Shown in pieces: positions 16,633 to 35,530 of a stretch of DNA of 64,000 nt (its first letter is position 1; each line of letters begins with the position of its first letter). The position numbers were made by a program, and so were the translations under genes. The notes beneath the pieces were generated by a model, which was given only the letters and a program-made list of their open reading frames with translations, made no database searches and was not told where the DNA came from. Source of the DNA: Aquitalea aquatica. GTDB lineage: Bacteria > Pseudomonadota > Gammaproteobacteria > Burkholderiales > Chromobacteriaceae. The stretch covers positions 124,001 through 188,000 of the forward strand of contig NZ_JACERN010000046.1 of the NCBI RefSeq assembly GCF_013911085.1, in the 5' to 3' direction.

Positions 16633-16850
16633 CGGTCCGCCAGCAACTGCCGTCACGGCCAAGCCCGAGCGGCGCTTGCGGCAGGCGTGCCGGGCATGAT
16701 CAACCGGCCTGAAGCCATGCCCAGCCTTGATTGAGGACATCATCATCAAGGTGGGGCTGTGTTAACATCTCTTTCACTTTTTAGCGGCTGCTATTGGCCG
16801 CATCGCCCGGTGTGCTTGCTTCCATCTTGGCCACCCTGAGTCCCTTGCCG

Positions 16851-18608
16851 ATGAAACATCATTTAGCATCCCGCTCCGAATTGTCCCAGGTCTTGCAAAC
16901 CTTCAAGCAGACCTTTTACCAGCTGGGTGCTTTCAGTGCCGTCATCAATCTGCTGATGCTGCTGCCTTCCATCTACATGCTGCAGATTTACGACCGGGTT
17001 TTGCACAGCCGCAATGAAACCACGCTGCTGATGCTGACCTTGCTGATGCTGGGGCTGTACGGGCTGATGTCTGTGCTGGAGCTGGTGCGCTCTTCGGTGC
17101 TGATCCGGGTGGGCAACCGGCTGGATATGCAGCTGAATTTCCGGGTATTCACCGCCGCCTTCGAGCGCAATCTGCGCAAGAACAATGGCAATGCCTCGCA
17201 AGCGCTGCATGACCTGACCAGCGTGCGCCAGTTTCTCACCGGCAACGGGCTGTTCGCATTTTTCGATGCGCCGTGGGCGCCCATCTACCTCGCCGTTACC
17301 TTCATGTTTCACTGGATTCTCGGTTTGTTTGTGCTGGGTGGCATGATCATCCTGTGCCTGCTGGCCTGGCTGACCGAGCGCTCCACCCGCAAGCCGCTGG
17401 CCGAGGCCAATCAAGCATCCATCGCTGCCGGCAACTACGCTAATAACAATCTGCGCAACGCCGAAGTGATCGAGGCCATGGGCATGCTGCCGGCCTTGCG
17501 CGAACGCTGGTTCCTGTTTCAGAGCCGGGTGCTGGAAAAGCAGACCGAAGCCTCCGACAAGGCTGCCCGCATCGGTGCGCTGTCCAAGCTGGTGCGGTTG
17601 TCGCTGCAATCGCTGGTGCTGGCTGTCGGTGCCTTGCTGGCCATCCAGAATGAAATATCCCCCGGCATGATGATTGCCGGTTCCATCCTGATGGGGCGGG
17701 CATTGCAGCCGGTGGAAATGGCCATCGGCACCTGGAAGCAGCTCAACAGCGCACGCGCGGCCTATCAGCGGCTGGAAGAGCTATTGGCCGAATTCCCCGC
17801 CCGCATCAGCGGCATGAGCTTGCCACGTCCGCAGGGCAGGGTGCAGGTAGAAAATGTGGTGGCAGCTGCACCCGGCAGCGGTGTGCCGATTCTCAAGGGC
17901 ATCAATTTTGCCATCGAGCATGGCGATATCGTGGGCGTGGTCGGCCCCAGTGCTGCCGGCAAGTCCACGCTGGCCCGGCTGCTGGTGGGCATCTGGCCGG
18001 CGCACTCGGGCAAGGTCAGGTTGGATGGTGCCGACATCTTTCAGTGGAACAAGGACGAGCTGGGGCCGCATATCGGTTATCTGCCGCAGGATGTCGAACT
18101 GTTTGATGGCAGCATCGCTGAAAACATCGCCCGCTTTGGCGATATTGATTCGGAGCGCGTCATCGAGGCAGCCAGCCGGGCCGGCGTGCACGAGATGATT
18201 CTGCACTTTGCCCAGGGCTACGATACCCGGCTGGGTGACGGTGGTCACCGGCTCTCCGGTGGCCAGAAACAGCGCATCGGCCTGGCCCGTGCCATCTATG
18301 CCAGCCCCGCCTTCGTGGTGCTGGATGAACCCAATTCCAATCTGGATGATGTCGGCGAGCAGGCACTCATCCATACCGTAATGGACCTGAAAGCGCATGG
18401 CACCACCGTGGTGCTGATCACCCATCGCACCAGCATTCTCAATGCAGTGGACAAACTGCTGGTGATGCGTGAAGGTCAACTGCATCTGTTTGGCCCACGC
18501 GATCAGGTCTTGTATGCCCTGAGCCAGGCCGCGCAGCAGGTCTTGCAGCAACAACAGGCGGCCATGCAGGGCCAGGCTGACCAGACTTCCGACGAGAACC
18601 ACGCATGA
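16851..18608 (+). CDS. Type I secretion ABC transporter (PrtD family)
   Basis: The inner-membrane motor of a type I secretion system: 585 residues from the ATG at 16851. It has a six-helix membrane domain (about 20-310) and an ATPase domain with Walker A GPSAAGKST (about 365), signature LSGGQKQR (about 468) and Walker B VVLDEPNSNLD. There is no N-terminal C39 peptidase-like domain, so it belongs with PrtD/AprD protease exporters rather than LapB-type adhesin exporters. A longer reading begins at a TTG (16794) and is less likely. It overlaps the next gene by 4 bases. Confidence 0.93.
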   Translation: MKHHLASRSELSQVLQTFKQTFYQLGAFSAVINLLMLLPSIYMLQIYDRVLHSRNETTLLMLTLLMLGLYGLMSVLELVRSSVLIRVGNRLDMQLNFRVFTAAFERNLRKNNGNASQALHDLTSVRQFLTGNGLFAFFDAPWAPIYLAVTFMFHWILGLFVLGGMIILCLLAWLTERSTRKPLAEANQASIAAGNYANNNLRNAEVIEAMGMLPALRERWFLFQSRVLEKQTEASDKAARIGALSKLVRLSLQSLVLAVGALLAIQNEISPGMMIAGSILMGRALQPVEMAIGTWKQLNSARAAYQRLEELLAEFPARISGMSLPRPQGRVQVENVVAAAPGSGVPILKGINFAIEHGDIVGVVGPSAAGKSTLARLLVGIWPAHSGKVRLDGADIFQWNKDELGPHIGYLPQDVELFDGSIAENIARFGDIDSERVIEAASRAGVHEMILHFAQGYDTRLGDGGHRLSGGQKQRIGLARAIYASPAFVVLDEPNSNLDDVGEQALIHTVMDLKAHGTTVVLITHRTSILNAVDKLLVMREGQLHLFGPRDQVLYALSQAAQQVLQQQQAAMQGQADQTSDENHA

Positions 18609-19978
18609 GCCTGTTCAAAAAACTGACACGCCCGGCTCGCGATAGCGCGCAAACCCCAGCAGAAAATGCCGCAGTCGCGCGCTTTGGCCGGGTGGATACC
18701 GACGATCAGCGCATTGGTCGCTGGGGCATGAAAATCGTGCTGATCGGCTTTGGCGGCTTTTTGCTGTGGGCTGCATTGGCGCCGCTGGATGAAGGTGTTA
18801 CCGCCAATGGCAGTGTCACCGTTGCCAGCAATCGCCAGACCGTGCAGCACCTGACCGGCGGCAGTATCGAAAAGCTGCTGGTGGGCGAGGGGGACGTGGT
18901 GAAGAAGGGGCAGCCGCTGATCCAGCTCAACGACACCGAGGCCCGCGCCCAAATGGGCAGCACGCTGGCACAGTTCATCAGTGCCCGTGCCATCGAAGAC
19001 CGGCTGCTGGCGGAGCGTGCCGGCCTGCCCACGCTGGTTTTCTCCGACGAGCTGAACGCGTTGGCCAGCGATACGCGGGTGGCGCAGGCCAGGCAGCTGC
19101 AAACCCAGTTGTTCAACACCCGCCGCGACGGCTTGCGCAATGAACTGAAGGCGCAGGATGAAAATATCGCGGGTCTGCAACAACAGCTGCGTGGCTTTCA
19201 GGGGGTAAAGGCGGCGCGTGCCGAGCAGAGTAAATGGCAGGACAAGGAGCTGGAAGGCATCCGTGATCTGGCTGCCGGTGGCTATGTGCCGAAAAACCGC
19301 CTGTATCAACTGGAGCGCGGGGCGGCCGAGCTGCGGGGCGAACTGGCTGACACCATCGCCAATATCGGCCGCGTCCAGGACAGCATTGCCGAAACCAAGC
19401 TGCGCCGTATCGCACGCCAGCAGGATTACCAGAAGGAAGTGGAGTCGCAGCTCACCGACATCCAGAAAGAAACCGATGCCTTGCGCGACCGCCTGACAGC
19501 CCAGCGCTACGTGGTGGCCAACAGCACCATTCGCGCACCGATTGATGGCCTGGTGGCCGGACTGAAGGTCCATACCGTTGGCGGTGTGGTGCAGGCCGGC
19601 CAGGCCTTGATGGATGTAGTGCCTACCAGTCAGCCGCTGCTGATTGAAGCCGCCGTCGATCCAGCGATGAGTGCCAAGGTACGCAGCGGGCTGCCGGTGG
19701 ATGTCACTTTCCCTGCCTTGAATCAGCAAACCACCCCGGTGATTCCCGGCGTAGTGGCTACTTTCTCGGCTGACCGGCTGCTGGATCCGAAAACTGGTGC
19801 GCCTTACTACCTGGCGCAAGTCAAGGTCACCCCGGCCGGCATGAAACTGCTGGGAGACCAGCCGGTCAAGCCTGGCATGCCTGCCACCATCGTCATCCGC
19901 AATGGTGAGCGTACCATGCTGCGCTATTTGCTCAAGCCAGTCATGGATCGCATGAATCTGGCGTTCAAGGAGAGCTGA
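18605..19978 (+). CDS. Type I secretion membrane fusion protein (HlyD/PrtE family)
   Basis: A 457-residue periplasmic adaptor that links the ABC motor to the outer-membrane pore. A short cytoplasmic tail precedes one membrane helix (about 40-58). The biotinyl-lipoyl halves flank a long coiled coil (about 110-290), and the typical RAPIDGLV-like segment reads STIRAPIDGLVAGL. It overlaps the ABC gene by ATGA and abuts the TolC-like gene (TGA immediately followed by ATG), so the three form one operon. Confidence 0.94.
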   Translation: MSLFKKLTRPARDSAQTPAENAAVARFGRVDTDDQRIGRWGMKIVLIGFGGFLLWAALAPLDEGVTANGSVTVASNRQTVQHLTGGSIEKLLVGEGDVVKKGQPLIQLNDTEARAQMGSTLAQFISARAIEDRLLAERAGLPTLVFSDELNALASDTRVAQARQLQTQLFNTRRDGLRNELKAQDENIAGLQQQLRGFQGVKAARAEQSKWQDKELEGIRDLAAGGYVPKNRLYQLERGAAELRGELADTIANIGRVQDSIAETKLRRIARQQDYQKEVESQLTDIQKETDALRDRLTAQRYVVANSTIRAPIDGLVAGLKVHTVGGVVQAGQALMDVVPTSQPLLIEAAVDPAMSAKVRSGLPVDVTFPALNQQTTPVIPGVVATFSADRLLDPKTGAPYYLAQVKVTPAGMKLLGDQPVKPGMPATIVIRNGERTMLRYLLKPVMDRMNLAFKES

Positions 19979-21337
19979 ATGGCCGCTTGCCACACCATGC
20001 GTCTTCCTGTCCTGCTGGCTTGCTATGCCATGCTGTGCCTGCCTGTGGCCAGTGCGTATGGCTTGCTGGAGGGGTTTCAACTGGCGCGCCTCAATGATGC
20101 GCAATACCAGGCAGCCACTGCCGAGCGCGAGGCAGGTGAAGCCAACAGGCCAATGGGCCGGGCACAACTGCTGCCAACACTGAATGCCAGCTTCAATCGC
20201 AGCAAGGTGACAGGCTCGGATACCGCGCCGGATTTCTTCGGCACGCTGAATACCTCGCCGCTCAAGTATATGAGTCAGGATGCCGCCATCCAGCTGCGTC
20301 AGCCCATTTTCAATCTGCAGCGCTGGGCCATGTATCAGCAGGGCAATGCCCGTGCCGATTACAGCCAGGCGATTTTTTCGCGCAAGGAATACGAACTGGC
20401 GGTGCGCTATCTGACCAGCTATCTGGGCCTGCTGCTATCGCAGAAGAACATCGCCTTGAGCGAGGCCAAGCTGCAGGCGCTCAGCGGCACGCGCTTGCAG
20501 GCGCAAAAGCTGTTTGATCAGGGCGATGGCACCATCACCGATATTCGCGATGCCGAGGCGCGCATGGCGCTGTCCGAGGCCGAGCTGATCGAGGCACGTA
20601 ATATGCAGGCCATTGCCGAGCGCAGCCTGGCGGCCATTACCGGCGAGACCGCCCGGCAACTGGCCGAACCGGAGCCGGGTATCGTGCAGTATCTGGGGGC
20701 GAGCGGGCAGATGGCGGACTGGCGTGAACAGGCCTTGCAACACAGCCCCGATATCCAGGCGGCGCAGATGAATGTGCGTATTGCCGAGCAAGAGCACAAG
20801 AAAGCCCGGGCGGCCAATTATCCCAGTCTTGATCTGGTCGCCAGCAAGGACCGCTCCAGTGCCAGTTCGGTGTCCACCATCAATCAACGCATTACCCAGA
20901 ATGTGATCGGTGTCGAGTTAAGCGTGCCGCTGTTCAATGGCGGTTTCAATTCCGCCCAGATCACCCAGAGCGGAGCGCTGTATCGCCAGGCGCTGGCCGA
21001 ACTGGACAATGCCCGTACACAGGTTGAGCTGGAAGTGGCCAAGCAGTTTTATGGCGTCAGCAGCGGTGTGCGCAAAGTGGCGGCCTTGCAAACGGCGGTG
21101 AGCGCCAGCGAGGAAACCGTCAAGGCCAGCAAGCTGGGTCTGGCCGCCGGTGTAAAAACCCTGACCGATATTCTTAATAGTGAAGAGCAGCTGTACCAGG
21201 CAAAGCGCGATTTGCTGCTGGCACAGTACAACCAGCTGGTTAGCTGGATCGCGCTGCGGGCCGATTCCGGCATTCTGAGCCCGCAGGATCTGGCACTGCT
21301 GGATCAGCATTTCACGCATCCGGCTGCCGCGCGCTAG
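19979..21337 (+). CDS. TolC-family outer membrane channel of the type I secretion system
   Basis: A 452-residue outer-membrane efflux protein with a signal peptide ending near VASAYG. Two TolC repeats are visible, and the segment TLTDILNSEEQLYQAKRDL close to the C-terminus is typical of the family. As the third gene of the operon it completes a full secretion conduit. An internal ATG at 19997 is an alternative start that would shorten the signal peptide. No substrate gene is inside the operon; the nearest candidate is the convergent calpain-like gene. Confidence 0.94.
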   Translation: MAACHTMRLPVLLACYAMLCLPVASAYGLLEGFQLARLNDAQYQAATAEREAGEANRPMGRAQLLPTLNASFNRSKVTGSDTAPDFFGTLNTSPLKYMSQDAAIQLRQPIFNLQRWAMYQQGNARADYSQAIFSRKEYELAVRYLTSYLGLLLSQKNIALSEAKLQALSGTRLQAQKLFDQGDGTITDIRDAEARMALSEAELIEARNMQAIAERSLAAITGETARQLAEPEPGIVQYLGASGQMADWREQALQHSPDIQAAQMNVRIAEQEHKKARAANYPSLDLVASKDRSSASSVSTINQRITQNVIGVELSVPLFNGGFNSAQITQSGALYRQALAELDNARTQVELEVAKQFYGVSSGVRKVAALQTAVSASEETVKASKLGLAAGVKTLTDILNSEEQLYQAKRDLLLAQYNQLVSWIALRADSGILSPQDLALLDQHFTHPAAAR

Positions 21338-21544: not shown

Positions 21545-24500
21545 TTATGCCGCATGAGCCAGCGTGGCATCGTTCATGTTGACACCCACCAGTGAAATGG
21601 CAGGCGCGTCGGCACTCAGCAGCGGGTGCGGCGAGGCGGCCACTCCGCCAATCGACAGCGAGAAGGTTTCACTGGCCGACAGGCCGGAAGTATCGGTGGC
21701 CTTTACCGTGATAGTGGCCGACTCGGTCTGGCTACCCATGGTGGCGACAAAGCTGTCGGTTTTGGGGTTGAAGGTAATCCAGCTGGGCAGCGCCTGGCCG
21801 TTGGCCTGGCTTGCGCTATAGCTTAGGGTCTGCCCTTGCGGATCGGTAAACGTGCCCTGCGGTACGCTGATATTGAGGGTGCCATTGGCGTTGAAACTGA
21901 TGGCCAGCGGCAAAGGATTGACCAGCGGCGCTTTCAGTGCGGTGGCCACATCATTGATGGTAAAGGTTTCCGAGGTCGACAGGCCGGCGCTATCGGTGGC
22001 GGTCAATTTGACCACGAAGCTGCCTGCCGTGGTGGGGGCCGTGCCGGAGAAGGTTTCGGTCTGGGCATTGAATGCCAGCCAGGATGGCAAGGCCTGGCCA
22101 TTGCTCAGCGCCGCCTTGTAAGTCAGTGCCAGCCCTTGCGGATCGACAAAGGTATTGGACGGCAGGCTAATGCTAAAAGCCTTGCCGGCATTGATGGTTT
22201 GCGTCGCCGTCTGCAGGTTGAGCGTGGGTGCGACGTAGCTGTCGTTCAGGGTAAAGGTTTCCGAGGTCGACAGGCCGGCCTGATTGCTGGCACTGACCAG
22301 CAGCGACAGCGTGGTGTTGGCCGTGGGTGCCATGCCGGAGAAAGTTTGCGTTTGGGCATTGAAGCTCAGCCAGGATGGCAGCGCCGCGCCACTGGCCAGC
22401 TTGGCGGTATAGGCCAGGGTCTCGCCTTGCGGGTCGGTAAAGGTGCCGGCCGGCAGGGCGAAGCTGAAACTGTGGCCAGGGGTGACCAGCTGGGTTGTCG
22501 TGGCCTTGCTCAGCGTCGGCGCATAGGCGGTATCGCTGATGGTAAAGCTTTCTGTTGCCGACAGCCCTGCCGTGTCCGTGACCTTTACCAGGATAGGGGT
22601 GCTGCTGGAGGACACCGGGGTGGTGCCGGACAAGGTGTTGGTTGCGGCATTGAATGTCATCCAGGAGGGCAGGGCCTGGCCATTGGCTTGGGTGACCTTG
22701 TAGCTGAGCGCCAGCCCTTGCGGGTCGTTGAAAACACTGGCCAGTGACAGCGAGAAGGCGTGGTTGGCTGCCAGCGTCTGGTTGGCCGTCTGGGCCTGCA
22801 GAACCGGGGCAACATAAGCATCATTCAGCGTGAAGCTTTCGGCTACGCTCAGGCCGGCTTGGTTGGTGGCAGTCACCTGCAGTGCCAGCGTGGTATTCGC
22901 CGTGGGTGCCGTGCCGGAGAAGGTCTGTGTCTGGGCATTGAAGCTCAGCCAGGACGGCAGCGCTGCACCGCTGGCCAGCTTGGCGCTGTAGCTGAGGGTT
23001 TCGCCTTGCGGGTCGGTAAAGGTGCCGGCAGGCAGGGCAAAGCTGAAACTGCGACCCGGTGTAACCAACTGACCTGCAGTGGCTTTGGCCAGAATCGGTG
23101 CAAGAGCCGTGTCGGTGATGGAGAAGGTTTCCGATGCAGACAACCCTGCGGTATCGGTCACCGTCACCAGCAGCTGTGTGCTGCTGGAGGATACCGGTGT
23201 GGTGCCGGACAGAGTGTTGGTCTGGGCGTTGAAGGTCATCCAGGAGGGCAGCGCTTGCCCATTGCTCTGGGTCACCTTGTAGGTCAAGGCCTGGCTTTGC
23301 GGGTCGGTAAAGGCATTGGCCAGCGATACCGAGAAGGCATGATTGGCTGCCAGCGTCTGATTGGCCGTCTGGTTGCTCAGGATGGGGGCCGCCGGTGTAA
23401 TCGGTACCGTACCGCCCGCATTGTCGACGGTGATAGTATCGCCAGCGGCCAGCAAGCTGGCCAGACTGACTTCGAAAGTAGTGTTCCAGTACTGGCCGGT
23501 TTGCGAACCCCAGGGGTTGCGGATCTGCAAGTAACCATTGGCAGCATCGATGCCGTAAATCGACATGGCATGGCCGGCAACGAGTTGTACCTTGCCGCCA
23601 GCGTCATAGCTCCAGGTGTAGGACGACAAGACCAGATCATCACCGGCAGCCAGATCAGCCTTCAGCGTGCTCAGTACAGTAGCCGTGGAGATGCCGCTTT
23701 GTGAGCCGGTACCCGACAGAGAAGAATTATAAGTACGGCACAGCCAGCTGGTGCCATTGGCGCAAAAATCGGTAATCTGCGAGGCACCGGTGATGGCCTC
23801 CAGCGCATACTCCGGCAGGCCGCCATTGCCAATGGCAGTAAAGCTGTTGCCGGTATAACTGTTGCCGGTGGTGACATTGATCGACTGCAATTGGGCATAG
23901 GCTTTTTCCAGCAGGGTAGCCCACATATTGCTACCACTATTACAGCCGGTTTGCAGTGTGTTGTTGACGGTAACGTATTCGGTGGCGCCCTTGTAGTGGA
24001 AGGCCACGCCATAGCTGCCGTTACCGTTGACCGTAATCATGTTCTTGATGATGCCGGCGTTCTGGCTGGCTACTTCGGCAATGGAAGACAAGAAATAGCA
24101 GTCGCCCAGCTTGCCTTGATTGATATCGCTGGCAGAGGGGCCATTGCTACCGAACAGCGCCGCAGTGCTGGCGCTGTAGGTCATCTTGGAAGTGGTGCCG
24201 CTCACGGTGACGGTTGACGAAGGCAAATCCGTGCCTTGCAGCCATTTGCCGTTTAGATTGCTCAGCTGCGCTGCGCTGGAACCGACTGCCAGATTGCCCA
24301 GGCTGCTACTGGCAGCCGCGCCACCGGTCCACGATGCATTGGCGGCATTGCCGTTGACCAGGGCATTCAGGGTGTACAGGTGATAGCTGGATGCGCTTTC
24401 GCCGACATTCAGATTGGTGACAATCGTTTTCAGATCGTTGAACTGATTGGCCGACAGCGTGGTTTTGTTGGTGGTCAGTTCTGCAGACAAATCAGTCACC

Positions 24501-24865
24501 AGCTTGGCCAGTCCGGCTTCGGTAACGGTGCCCGCCATGGCATTCATATCGGCCTTTAGCACCGAGTCCGATAGCGTGGCAATCCAGGATGGTGCCGTGG
24601 TACTGCCCGTTTTCACCATGTTGCTGGCACTGCTCACCGTGCTGCTACCGGCCAGTGCCGTGGTACTGGCGGTGTTTGTGCTCACCGTCGTTGCCGTCAG
24701 GGTAGAGGTAGGGGTTGCGCTAAACAGCGAAGCCAAGGCCGACACGGACAGATCGCCCAGCCCGAGAAAGCCGGGGTCAGACAACAGCCCTTCGGCGGCC
24801 TTGGTCATGGCGGCATTGGCGAGGAGCTGATCTTGCTGGCGGGTCGAAGTATTCGAGGCGCTCAT
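21545..24865 (-). CDS. Calpain-family (C2) cysteine protease with six cadherin-like repeats, probable type I secretion substrate
   Basis: A 1106-residue protein. Residues 1-220 are Ser/Thr/Ala-rich with no signal peptide. The calpain-type core spans about 235-480, with an NQGKLGDCYFLSS segment (oxyanion Gln250, nucleophile Cys256), MWATLLEKAYAQL, GHAMSIYGI (His432) and IRNPWGS (Asn450), so the full catalytic set is present. Six repeats of 96-99 residues follow (493-1072), each with TDPQG, LPSW and AGLSxSETF-type motifs like He_PIG/cadherin-type Ig folds. A short tail ends DATLAHAA. No RTX nonapeptides are seen. Export by the adjacent type I system is inferred from position and the missing signal peptide. 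A cyclic-di-GMP riboswitch precedes it. Confidence 0.88.
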   Translation of the reverse strand: MSASNTSTRQQDQLLANAAMTKAAEGLLSDPGFLGLGDLSVSALASLFSATPTSTLTATTVSTNTASTTALAGSSTVSSASNMVKTGSTTAPSWIATLSDSVLKADMNAMAGTVTEAGLAKLVTDLSAELTTNKTTLSANQFNDLKTIVTNLNVGESASSYHLYTLNALVNGNAANASWTGGAAASSSLGNLAVGSSAAQLSNLNGKWLQGTDLPSSTVTVSGTTSKMTYSASTAALFGSNGPSASDINQGKLGDCYFLSSIAEVASQNAGIIKNMITVNGNGSYGVAFHYKGATEYVTVNNTLQTGCNSGSNMWATLLEKAYAQLQSINVTTGNSYTGNSFTAIGNGGLPEYALEAITGASQITDFCANGTSWLCRTYNSSLSGTGSQSGISTATVLSTLKADLAAGDDLVLSSYTWSYDAGGKVQLVAGHAMSIYGIDAANGYLQIRNPWGSQTGQYWNTTFEVSLASLLAAGDTITVDNAGGTVPITPAAPILSNQTANQTLAANHAFSVSLANAFTDPQSQALTYKVTQSNGQALPSWMTFNAQTNTLSGTTPVSSSSTQLLVTVTDTAGLSASETFSITDTALAPILAKATAGQLVTPGRSFSFALPAGTFTDPQGETLSYSAKLASGAALPSWLSFNAQTQTFSGTAPTANTTLALQVTATNQAGLSVAESFTLNDAYVAPVLQAQTANQTLAANHAFSLSLASVFNDPQGLALSYKVTQANGQALPSWMTFNAATNTLSGTTPVSSSSTPILVKVTDTAGLSATESFTISDTAYAPTLSKATTTQLVTPGHSFSFALPAGTFTDPQGETLAYTAKLASGAALPSWLSFNAQTQTFSGMAPTANTTLSLLVSASNQAGLSTSETFTLNDSYVAPTLNLQTATQTINAGKAFSISLPSNTFVDPQGLALTYKAALSNGQALPSWLAFNAQTETFSGTAPTTAGSFVVKLTATDSAGLSTSETFTINDVATALKAPLVNPLPLAISFNANGTLNISVPQGTFTDPQGQTLSYSASQANGQALPSWITFNPKTDSFVATMGSQTESATITVKATDTSGLSASETFSLSIGGVAASPHPLLSADAPAISLVGVNMNDATLAHAA
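22232..23389 (-). repeat. Tandem 579-base duplication inside the calpain-like gene
   Basis: Repeat modules 1-2 (22811-23389) and 3-4 (22232-22810) form an exact-length pair of 193 residues each. Odd modules share TANQTLAANHAFS, even modules share QLVTPG and FSFALPAGTFTDPQGETL, showing that a two-module unit was copied as a block. Modules 5 and 6 are more diverged. Confidence 0.85.
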
Positions 24866-24931
24866 GGCTTTCCTTCAGAAGAGTAAGGCAAAGCTAAAGG
24901 AGCGCTTGCAGCTGGCACGGGGCGTGTCGCT

Positions 24932-25008
24932 GGCAACTGGCTGACATAAGCGGTAAAGCCGCCCGTAGTCCCTTTAGTTTTGCGTCGCCGGCTTTCACCG
25001 GTTTTGCC
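24932..25008 (-). promoter_or_regulatory. Cyclic-di-GMP-I (GEMM-I) riboswitch aptamer in the leader of the calpain-like gene
   Basis: Read on the minus strand, GGCAA at the 5' end pairs with TTGCC at the 3' end. A first arm has stem CCGG/CCGG capped by a GAAA tetraloop, then the diagnostic linker GACGCAAA. A second arm has AACT pairing with AGTT, the conserved AAAGGGACTACGG segment, a GCGG/CCGC hairpin, and TTATGTCAGCC on the return strand. These are the conserved elements of the GEMM-I class in the expected order. The aptamer ends 66 bases before the start codon (ribosome site AAGGA). No poly-U terminator follows, so control of translation or leader stability is more likely than termination. 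Recognised by eye; not scored with a covariance model. Confidence 0.87.
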
Positions 25009-25188
25009 TATAACGGTCTAATTCTATGTGTGAAATTTCGTAAAAGGAAAAGGAAATTAACAATCTGTATCTGATCTGAGACAGATATCCAGCAAACGAT
25101 GAATAGTGCTTCAAGCCAGTACTGCAGACGGTATGCCAGCGTGCCCATTGTTGGCCTACCACTATGCAGGCTAGCTGCTGCGAGGGAC

Positions 25189-25242
25189 AAAAACCAAACC
25201 CCGGACACCGCGTGTTCTTGACTGAAACACGGGAGCCCGGGG
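25189..25242 (-). terminator. Terminator after the yggL - GIY-YIG unit
   Basis: On the minus strand CCCCGG (25242-25237) and CGTGTT (25231-25226) pair with AACACG (25216-25211) and CCGGGG (25204-25199), followed by TTTGGTTTTTG. It lies about 150 bases past the GIY-YIG stop codon. Between this hairpin and the riboswitch (25009-25188) no gene is seen; the AT-rich part near 25015-25075 presumably holds the promoter of the calpain-like gene. Confidence 0.7.
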
Positions 25243-25388
25243 CGGGCCAGATCGGATAGTACAGTTCGTACGCATGCAGTAATTGTTTCGTTTGCTGCAG
25301 GTTGGCCGCTACCCTGGCACTCAGCACTCGATAGGGTTTCAAACAAATTGATATCTAACCCATTTGGCTGCAGTCGCCGCGATAAAAG

Positions 25389-34989: not shown

Positions 34990-35065
<76 letters not shown>

Positions 35066-35121
35066 GGTGTTGCTTGACTTGCCATGCGGTCTGGAGCCGA
35101 CATCACAAGCTGACTGTAGTG

Positions 35122-35197
<76 letters not shown>

Positions 35198-35251
35198 GAT
35201 AATGCTGGACTCCTGATAACCGTCAGTGTGTCATCAAAAGCTTACTGTCTG

Positions 35252-35327
<76 letters not shown>

Positions 35328-35349
35328 ACGGGTACTACGTCTGATACTC

Positions 35350-35425
35350 TGGCGTCCCCACGGGGAGTCGAACCCCGGTTACCGCCGTGAAAGGGCGATG
35401 TCCTAGGCCACTAGACGATGGGGAC
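35350..35425 (-). tRNA. tRNA-Glu (anticodon TTC)
   Basis: A 76-base cloverleaf with encoded CCA. Acceptor GTCCCCA pairs with TGGGGAC, and the anticodon loop CTTTCAC gives TTC. It lies between alanine tRNA copies 1 and 2. Confidence 0.97.
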
Positions 35426-35454
35426 CCTAAGAACTTTATCCGACTGGAACGATT

Positions 35455-35530
<76 letters not shown>

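Follow-up and report, generated by a model that had tools for sequence, protein, structure and literature searches.

In the LapG/LapD system, a protease that is active at low c-di-GMP releases cells from surfaces; LapG is retained by a protein that binds c-di-GMP and not by RNA. The ZmpI protease of C. difficile is also called PPEP-1, and the riboswitch Vc2 of Vibrio cholerae has tfoY as its target gene. The zmpI gene (CD2830) was reported to be negatively regulated by c-di-GMP via the type I riboswitch Cdi1_12, and the protein to free surface proteins when c-di-GMP is low (PMC4591827). The same work provides a published case of a secreted protease under GEMM-I control, its family being another than that of the protease described here. 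In C. difficile, the class I switches that function are described to act by transcription termination (PMC6366702), while Vc2 is reported to be a translational OFF switch (Inuzuka 2018 as cited in PMC9262584). Bacterial calpains of family C2 are described as rare and patchy in their distribution, with varied domain architectures (PMC4631099), and knowledge about them was called scarce (PMC9380684).

We analyzed a window of 64 kb (64,000 nt) from the genome of Aquitalea aquatica, in which a leader with a cyclic-di-GMP-I (GEMM-I) aptamer precedes a gene for a calpain-like protease. We consider it likely, with a probability of about two in three, that this leader is a c-di-GMP-I riboswitch acting as a translational OFF switch for the protease, which is probably exported by a facing type I secretion system of the PrtD type. 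As in the case of Cdi1_12 and zmpI, a cyclic-di-GMP-I riboswitch is combined with a protease gene, the known zmpI encoding a secreted protease whose expression falls at high c-di-GMP. The two systems differ in the enzyme and the host, since ZmpI is a zinc metalloprotease of a Gram-positive bacterium and the Aquitalea protein a family C2 cysteine protease of a Gram-negative one. Unlike the switches of C. difficile that act by termination, the Aquitalea leader has no terminator-like site, and it has type I secretion genes in its neighborhood. For Vc2 the P1 helix was stressed as the key element (PMC9262584), whereas in Aquitalea the strand CUAAAGG of the second arm is the predicted switching strand; the target genes are unrelated.

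The riboswitch class itself is known, and we did not find calpain reported as its target in openly licensed papers. The combination of calpain, c-di-GMP and riboswitch was not found in the openly licensed literature searched, nor was the combination of Aquitalea and riboswitch. The Aquitalea protease shares the C2 domain with the bacterial calpains of PMC4631099, an article whose main text contains neither the word riboswitch nor the name Aquitalea. Passages of PMC10318531 and PMC10974088 contain no link of calpain with c-di-GMP. In a transposon screen of A. magnusonii H3 on duckweed, genes for c-di-GMP signaling were enriched (PMC8770550), and the text on this screen does not mention calpain, protease or adhesin.

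Identification of the Aptamer

The genes and the RNA element discussed in this and the following section are:

24929–25018, minus strand: cyclic-di-GMP-I (GEMM-I) aptamer (RF01051, E 4.5e-11; in 8/10 Aquitalea genomes)
21545–24865, minus strand: calpain-like protease of 1106 aa with an N-terminal region, a Peptidase_C2 domain (C256, H432, N450) and six He_PIG Ig-like repeats (profile matches, alignments)
16794–18608, plus strand: type I secretion ABC permease/ATPase, PrtD type (TIGR01842, 784.9 bits, cut-off 510)
18605–19978, plus strand: type I secretion adaptor of the HlyD family (TIGR01843, 376.1 bits, cut-off 209)
19979–21337, plus strand: TolC-family outer-membrane protein (TIGR01844, 284.2 bits, cut-off 225)

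The original prediction placed a GEMM-I aptamer on the minus strand ahead of a calpain-type protease gene and named an RF01051 scan as the check. An Rfam cmscan of the 64-kb window gave a strong match at 25018–24929(-), with 67.5 bits compared to a gathering score of 35, which covered the full model (1–87) untruncated. The predicted position was right, as the ORF downstream of the match encodes a Peptidase_C2 protein. All landmarks claimed for the minus strand were present (GGCAAAACCGGTGAAAGCCGG, GACGCAAA, AAAGGGACTACGG, TTATGTCAGCC and TTGCC), and the closing stem does lie 66 bases from the start codon, the TTGCC strand ending at 24932 and the ATG starting at 24865. The Rfam match itself ends 63 nt before this ATG. 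The aptamer is located on the minus strand between the ORFs 26309–25389 and 24865–21545. The remaining 6 Rfam matches at the gathering threshold in the 64-kb window were tRNAs.

GGCAAA and TTGCC were invariant in the alignment of all 8 Aquitalea leaders with this element. All 8/8 leaders likewise have the letters that we take to be ligand contacts, namely the G in GGCAAA and the 3' CC; we place the c-di-GMP selectivity G (the Vc2 G20 position) and the 3' C contact in these two invariant segments. Sensing of another cyclic dinucleotide, for example 3',3'-cGAMP, is most improbable, because the selectivity position, as we place it, is a G as in c-di-GMP binders. The G20 position of Vc2 is described as a selectivity factor (PMC9262584), and GEMM-I-type riboswitches for cGAMP do exist (PMC8835794, PMC6456294). 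As 63/78 aptamer columns were invariant across the 8 genomes of the genus, the aptamer hardly varies and pair counts are therefore uninformative; no two-sided covariation was seen in the pair counts of the 8 leaders. By family match and landmarks, the leader is confirmed as a real c-di-GMP-I aptamer, which would be expected to bind c-di-GMP.

Protease Gene and Facing Type I Secretion Operon

The Pfam scan of ORF 24865–21545 revealed a Peptidase_C2 domain (PF00648) at residues 238–455 (E 4.3e-17, 62.5 bits, cut-off 23.8) and six He_PIG Ig-like stretches. A profile built from the eight Aquitalea orthologs recovered calpains of solved structure with a best E of 5.1e-10. C256, H432 and N450, which we take to be the calpain catalytic triad, were invariant in the 8 orthologs, and likewise when the window protein was aligned with four further Aquitalea and two outside homologs. 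The length of the orthologs varied with the number of repeats (910–1110 aa), and a C-terminal ISLVG stretch was conserved. An AlphaFold model of residues 1–488, calculated from seven sequences, was poor (mean pLDDT 40.5). None of the plasmid records covered 80% of the protease (144 of 72,556 records matched), and the best plasmid matches were mainly to the part from residue 493 on, which comprises the Ig-like repeats.

Apart from the protease, He_PIG was matched in this genome only in a 2196-aa protein with haemagglutinin repeats. The idea that this protein is a substrate of the protease is speculative. The genome also contains one match to Peptidase_C93 (LapG-type) at G000:C34:10680–11030, away from the calpain locus. 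A protein-based c-di-GMP system for adhesin release may exist beside the calpain in this strain.

The three type I secretion genes are arranged tail to tail with the protease gene. The same three genes were found at the same place in 7/7 other genomes, with 77–98% identity of the proteins. PrtD-type systems export proteases and lipases, and the protease is probably exported by the facing system. Because no RTX repeats were matched in the protease by Pfam and NCBIfam scans, export by the neighboring operon is a function that we infer.

Distribution of Riboswitch and Protease

Exactly one RF01051 element was detected in 8/10 Aquitalea genomes, with 150 first-look candidates scored per genome (150/387 in the A. 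aquatica genome, which gave a single match), so that weak additional elements could be missed. In the 7 further genomes the element upstream of the orthologous gene scored 60.5–66.6 bits. The same 8 genomes carried a close ortholog of the protease (77–100% identity), which started 57–63 nt beyond the Rfam match. Two genomes of the genus had neither riboswitch nor protease (G008, 61% complete, and G009, 100% complete), and the best match to HlyD, the exporter protein searched there, was 30% in both. Riboswitch, protease and exporter seem to come and go together, the evidence for this being limited to two negative genomes, one of them incomplete.

Protein matches were found in 9 of 61 genomes of the family, namely the 8 from Aquitalea and one other (G036; 33–40%, over parts of the protein). 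A scan of named genomes with two peptide patterns resulted in six loci. The homologs of Aquitalea magnusonii, A. palustris, A. pelogenes and Aquitalea sp. LB_tupeE showed 75–81% identity; outside the genus, Rhodoblastus sphagnicola (L078) had a homolog with 55% and a Telmatospirillum MAG (L079) one with 40% identity. RF01051 was not matched near the gene or elsewhere in the genome of either of these two. The Rhodoblastus homolog (L078:9809–11905) has 698 aa, 52–55% identity and the same Cys, His and Asn. No match to a type I secretion gene was found in the 21 kb examined around it. That the Rhodoblastus gene was acquired by horizontal transfer is a guess.

In a sample of the order, RF01051 was present in 149/399 genomes and Peptidase_C2 at E ≤ 0.001 in 9/399 (8 over the cut-off), five of the nine being Aquitalea. 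The phylum sample had Peptidase_C2 in 6/398 genomes, including the genome studied here, and 4 of these were over the cut-off. Of the non-Aquitalea genomes, 10 that have a calpain or calpain-like match were scanned for RF01051, a set that leaves out two weak matches (G547 and G637). It was found in one (G265), with GEMM-I on contig C77 and the calpain on a different contig, C105. A second pairing of riboswitch and calpain outside Aquitalea was not found in the genomes sampled. We therefore regard the pairing as a trait at the genus level that is known only in Aquitalea.

Parts of the Leader and Predicted Expression Platform

The leader comprises the following parts in addition to the aptamer:

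25021–25026, minus strand: TAGAAT, -10-like box directly upstream of the aptamer, tentative promoter (TANAAT in 8/8 leaders)
24971–24977, minus strand: CUAAAGG, Shine-Dalgarno look-alike on the 5' side of the second aptamer arm (8/8 Aquitalea leaders)
24910–24931, minus strand: spacer, able to form a small hairpin and differing in sequence between species (folds in 8 leaders)
24900–24905, minus strand: GCGCUC, complementary to GAGCGC at the start codon (24858–24863), a pairing that would close the ribosome-binding site (constrained folds)
24888–24900, minus strand: putative switching block CCUUUAGCUUUGC, which can pair with GCAAAACUAAAGG of the aptamer (24971–24983) or help to close the ribosome-binding site (complementarity, conservation)
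24871–24876, minus strand: GAAGGA, Shine-Dalgarno sequence (sequence and alignment)

A scan with the sigma-70 consensus found no promoter in 24700–25388, and the -10-like box is therefore a weak candidate.

The block CCUUUAGCUUUGC is complementary to the aptamer strand GCAAAACUAAAGG, with 12 pairs in 13 positions, and all 96/96 cells in the 8 sequences were standard pairs. Two pairs of this helix varied on one side and none on both sides. With the partner strand displaced by 1–3 columns, pairing decreased to 18.5–67.7%. The energy of the duplex was -11.8 to -14.0 kcal/mol, a value that was matched by 1, 3, 3, 0, 0, 0, 0 and 0 of 500 dinucleotide shuffles in the 8 leaders. Conservation differed between parts of the linker: 10/13 columns were invariant in the block, compared to 10/31 in the spacer before it and 1/11 between the block and the Shine-Dalgarno sequence. 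The hairpins of the spacer were not all alike, and G002 folded differently. In the folds of G006 and G007 a helix of CAUGUGY with GCACAUG replaces GCGCUC/GAGCGC.

The Aquitalea aptamer could also be a relic that has no regulatory effect, given that only 7/12 class I riboswitches in C. difficile were reported as functional (PMC6366702). The high proportion of invariant columns in aptamer (63/78) and block (10/13) as opposed to the spacer in the 8 genomes, and the fact that presence of the riboswitch tracks the gene in the 10 genomes of the genus, make such a relic very improbable.

The sequence is ACUAAAGGGA in the aptamer strand and ACUGAAGGAA or a close variant at the true Shine-Dalgarno site, with CCAAAGGAAA in two leaders. 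For comparison we used 34 further GEMM-I loci from the family and the order (L009–L012, L035–L064), those of the order being among the highest-scoring. The core pattern was readable in 30 of them; the CUAAAGG look-alike occurred in 0/30, and 25/30 read CCGG at this place.

The absence of a poly-U terminator stem downstream of the aptamer, as originally predicted, was borne out by a scan of 24700–25388, which found no site resembling an intrinsic terminator. Such a leader could also act mainly through mRNA decay or Rho-dependent termination, with the ligand having no direct effect on ribosome access. Blocked translation commonly exposes mRNA to decay and to Rho-dependent termination, and together with the missing terminator-like site this speaks for such a mode of action. 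However, the conserved block at 24888–24900 is complementary to the aptamer strand and joins in closing the ribosome site in the folds, which points to ribosome access first and renders control mainly by decay or Rho unlikely.

Predicted Effect of the Aptamer on Ribosome Access

Under the proposed OFF switch, the aptamer strand GCAAAACUAAAGG would pair with the block CCUUUAGCUUUGC at low c-di-GMP and the aptamer would be broken. In this anti-aptamer state the ribosome-binding site should be weakly structured, so that the protein could be made. Binding of c-di-GMP would lock the strand in the aptamer and set the block free; the block and its neighbors would then form pairs that enclose the Shine-Dalgarno sequence together with the start codon, and translation would be blocked. 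The protease would consequently be made at low c-di-GMP, when cells are motile or leave a surface.

The folds of each leader were constrained to contain one of the two alternatives, the aptamer or the anti-aptamer helix, and the energy needed to open the ribosome site was calculated for both. The values of this calculation and of its shuffle control are listed in the order G000, G001, G002, G004, G007, G005, G006, G003. With the aptamer enforced, opening cost 13.8, 13.7, 8.8, 6.6, 11.9, 10.6, 7.7 and 10.7 kcal/mol, and with the anti-aptamer helix enforced 5.3, 5.1, 3.2, 3.9, 5.8, 5.3, 3.4 and 4.0 kcal/mol. The ribosome site was thus costlier to open with the aptamer in 8/8 leaders, and a closed ribosome site is predicted for the aptamer state. 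As a control, 60 shuffled linkers were folded per leader. The increase in cost relative to the free ensemble was reached by 0, 0, 2, 1, 1, 1, 27 and 0 of 60 shuffled linkers; therefore seven leaders support an OFF switch and G006, with 27, does not. The cost of the aptamer state alone was matched by 0, 0, 7, 6, 0, 2, 11 and 2 of 60, the higher counts being those of G002 (7), G004 (6) and G006 (11).

Accessibilities gave a less uniform picture. The mean accessibility of the Shine-Dalgarno sequence dropped with the aptamer in 7/8 leaders, by only 0.01–0.04 in G002, G006 and G003, and increased in G004 from 0.41 to 0.52. Accessibility of the start codon increased with the aptamer in G005 and G003; in these two leaders a local hairpin over the Shine-Dalgarno sequence coexists with the anti-aptamer helix and is compatible with both states. 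These increases, and the opposing directions in which two class I switches of V. cholerae are described to respond (PMC6366702), would fit an ON switch, by which c-di-GMP opens the ribosome site and the protease is made in sessile cells. Since the aptamer state was more closed in 8/8 leaders by opening energy, and this contrast exceeded the shuffles in seven, we regard an ON switch as quite unlikely.

In the ligand-free case, enforcing the anti-aptamer helix gave an ensemble 1.7–5.1 kcal/mol below that obtained with the aptamer enforced, a preference that binding of c-di-GMP could reverse according to its published affinities. The highest pair probability of the anti-aptamer helix in unconstrained folds was 0.45, 0.20, 0.20, 0.43, 0.17, 0.86, 0.00 and 0.77 in the 8 leaders and thus far from dominant in several. 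The helix was part of the minimum-energy fold in 7/8 or 5/8 leaders, depending on the ends chosen. Due to the low probabilities of this helix and the small shifts in accessibility, the predicted ON state of the OFF switch is weak on thermodynamics alone.

The original prediction had left the choice between ribosome access and mRNA stability. Control of ribosome access was the better supported of the two, by the missing terminator-like site, the opening costs and the conserved block, and mRNA stability the less supported. The likely sign of control (OFF), the block at 24888–24900, the linkage across the genus and the facing secretion operon go beyond that prediction. An extended version of the OFF switch is doubtful: the only detected c-di-GMP-I riboswitch would, as a translational OFF switch, control a "release" module complete in itself, in which a calpain-type protease leaves the cell through a type I secretion system of its own once c-di-GMP drops. 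Such a module would be an RNA-controlled counterpart of LapG and ZmpI. In this version the aptamer strand would have become, in the course of evolution, a mimic of the Shine-Dalgarno sequence, and the mimic and the real sequence would compete for one anti-Shine-Dalgarno block.

A c-di-GMP sensor ahead of a bacterial calpain provides a direct and testable handle on these little-known enzymes. It would predict when the calpain is made and would link the enzyme to whether cells swim or settle. With one detected riboswitch and one target, the locus also offers a clean system for a translational switch in a Gram-negative host.

Genes Downstream of Other GEMM-I Loci

At the 34 other GEMM-I loci, with downstream starts chosen mechanically, the downstream proteins of 18 were scanned with Pfam and included 3 subtilases and 6 DUF1631 proteins. 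With 3 subtilases among 18, proteases behind GEMM-I recur. This suggests that control of proteases by c-di-GMP riboswitches recurs across unrelated protease families (subtilases, ZmpI, calpain). The loci with GEMM-I ahead of subtilase (Peptidase_S8) genes were L011:1501–3082 (L032:4306–6576), L037 and L042, from three genomes of the family or the order. GEMM-I ahead of DUF1631 (PF07793) proteins was seen at L035, L043, L050, L060, L061 and L064, which belong to six different families of the order.

Within the window, four tRNA-Ala(GGC) genes and one tRNA-Glu gene are clustered in 541 bases at 34990–35530. Three of the four tRNA-Ala(GGC) genes are identical over 76 bases, and the fourth differs at 2 positions.
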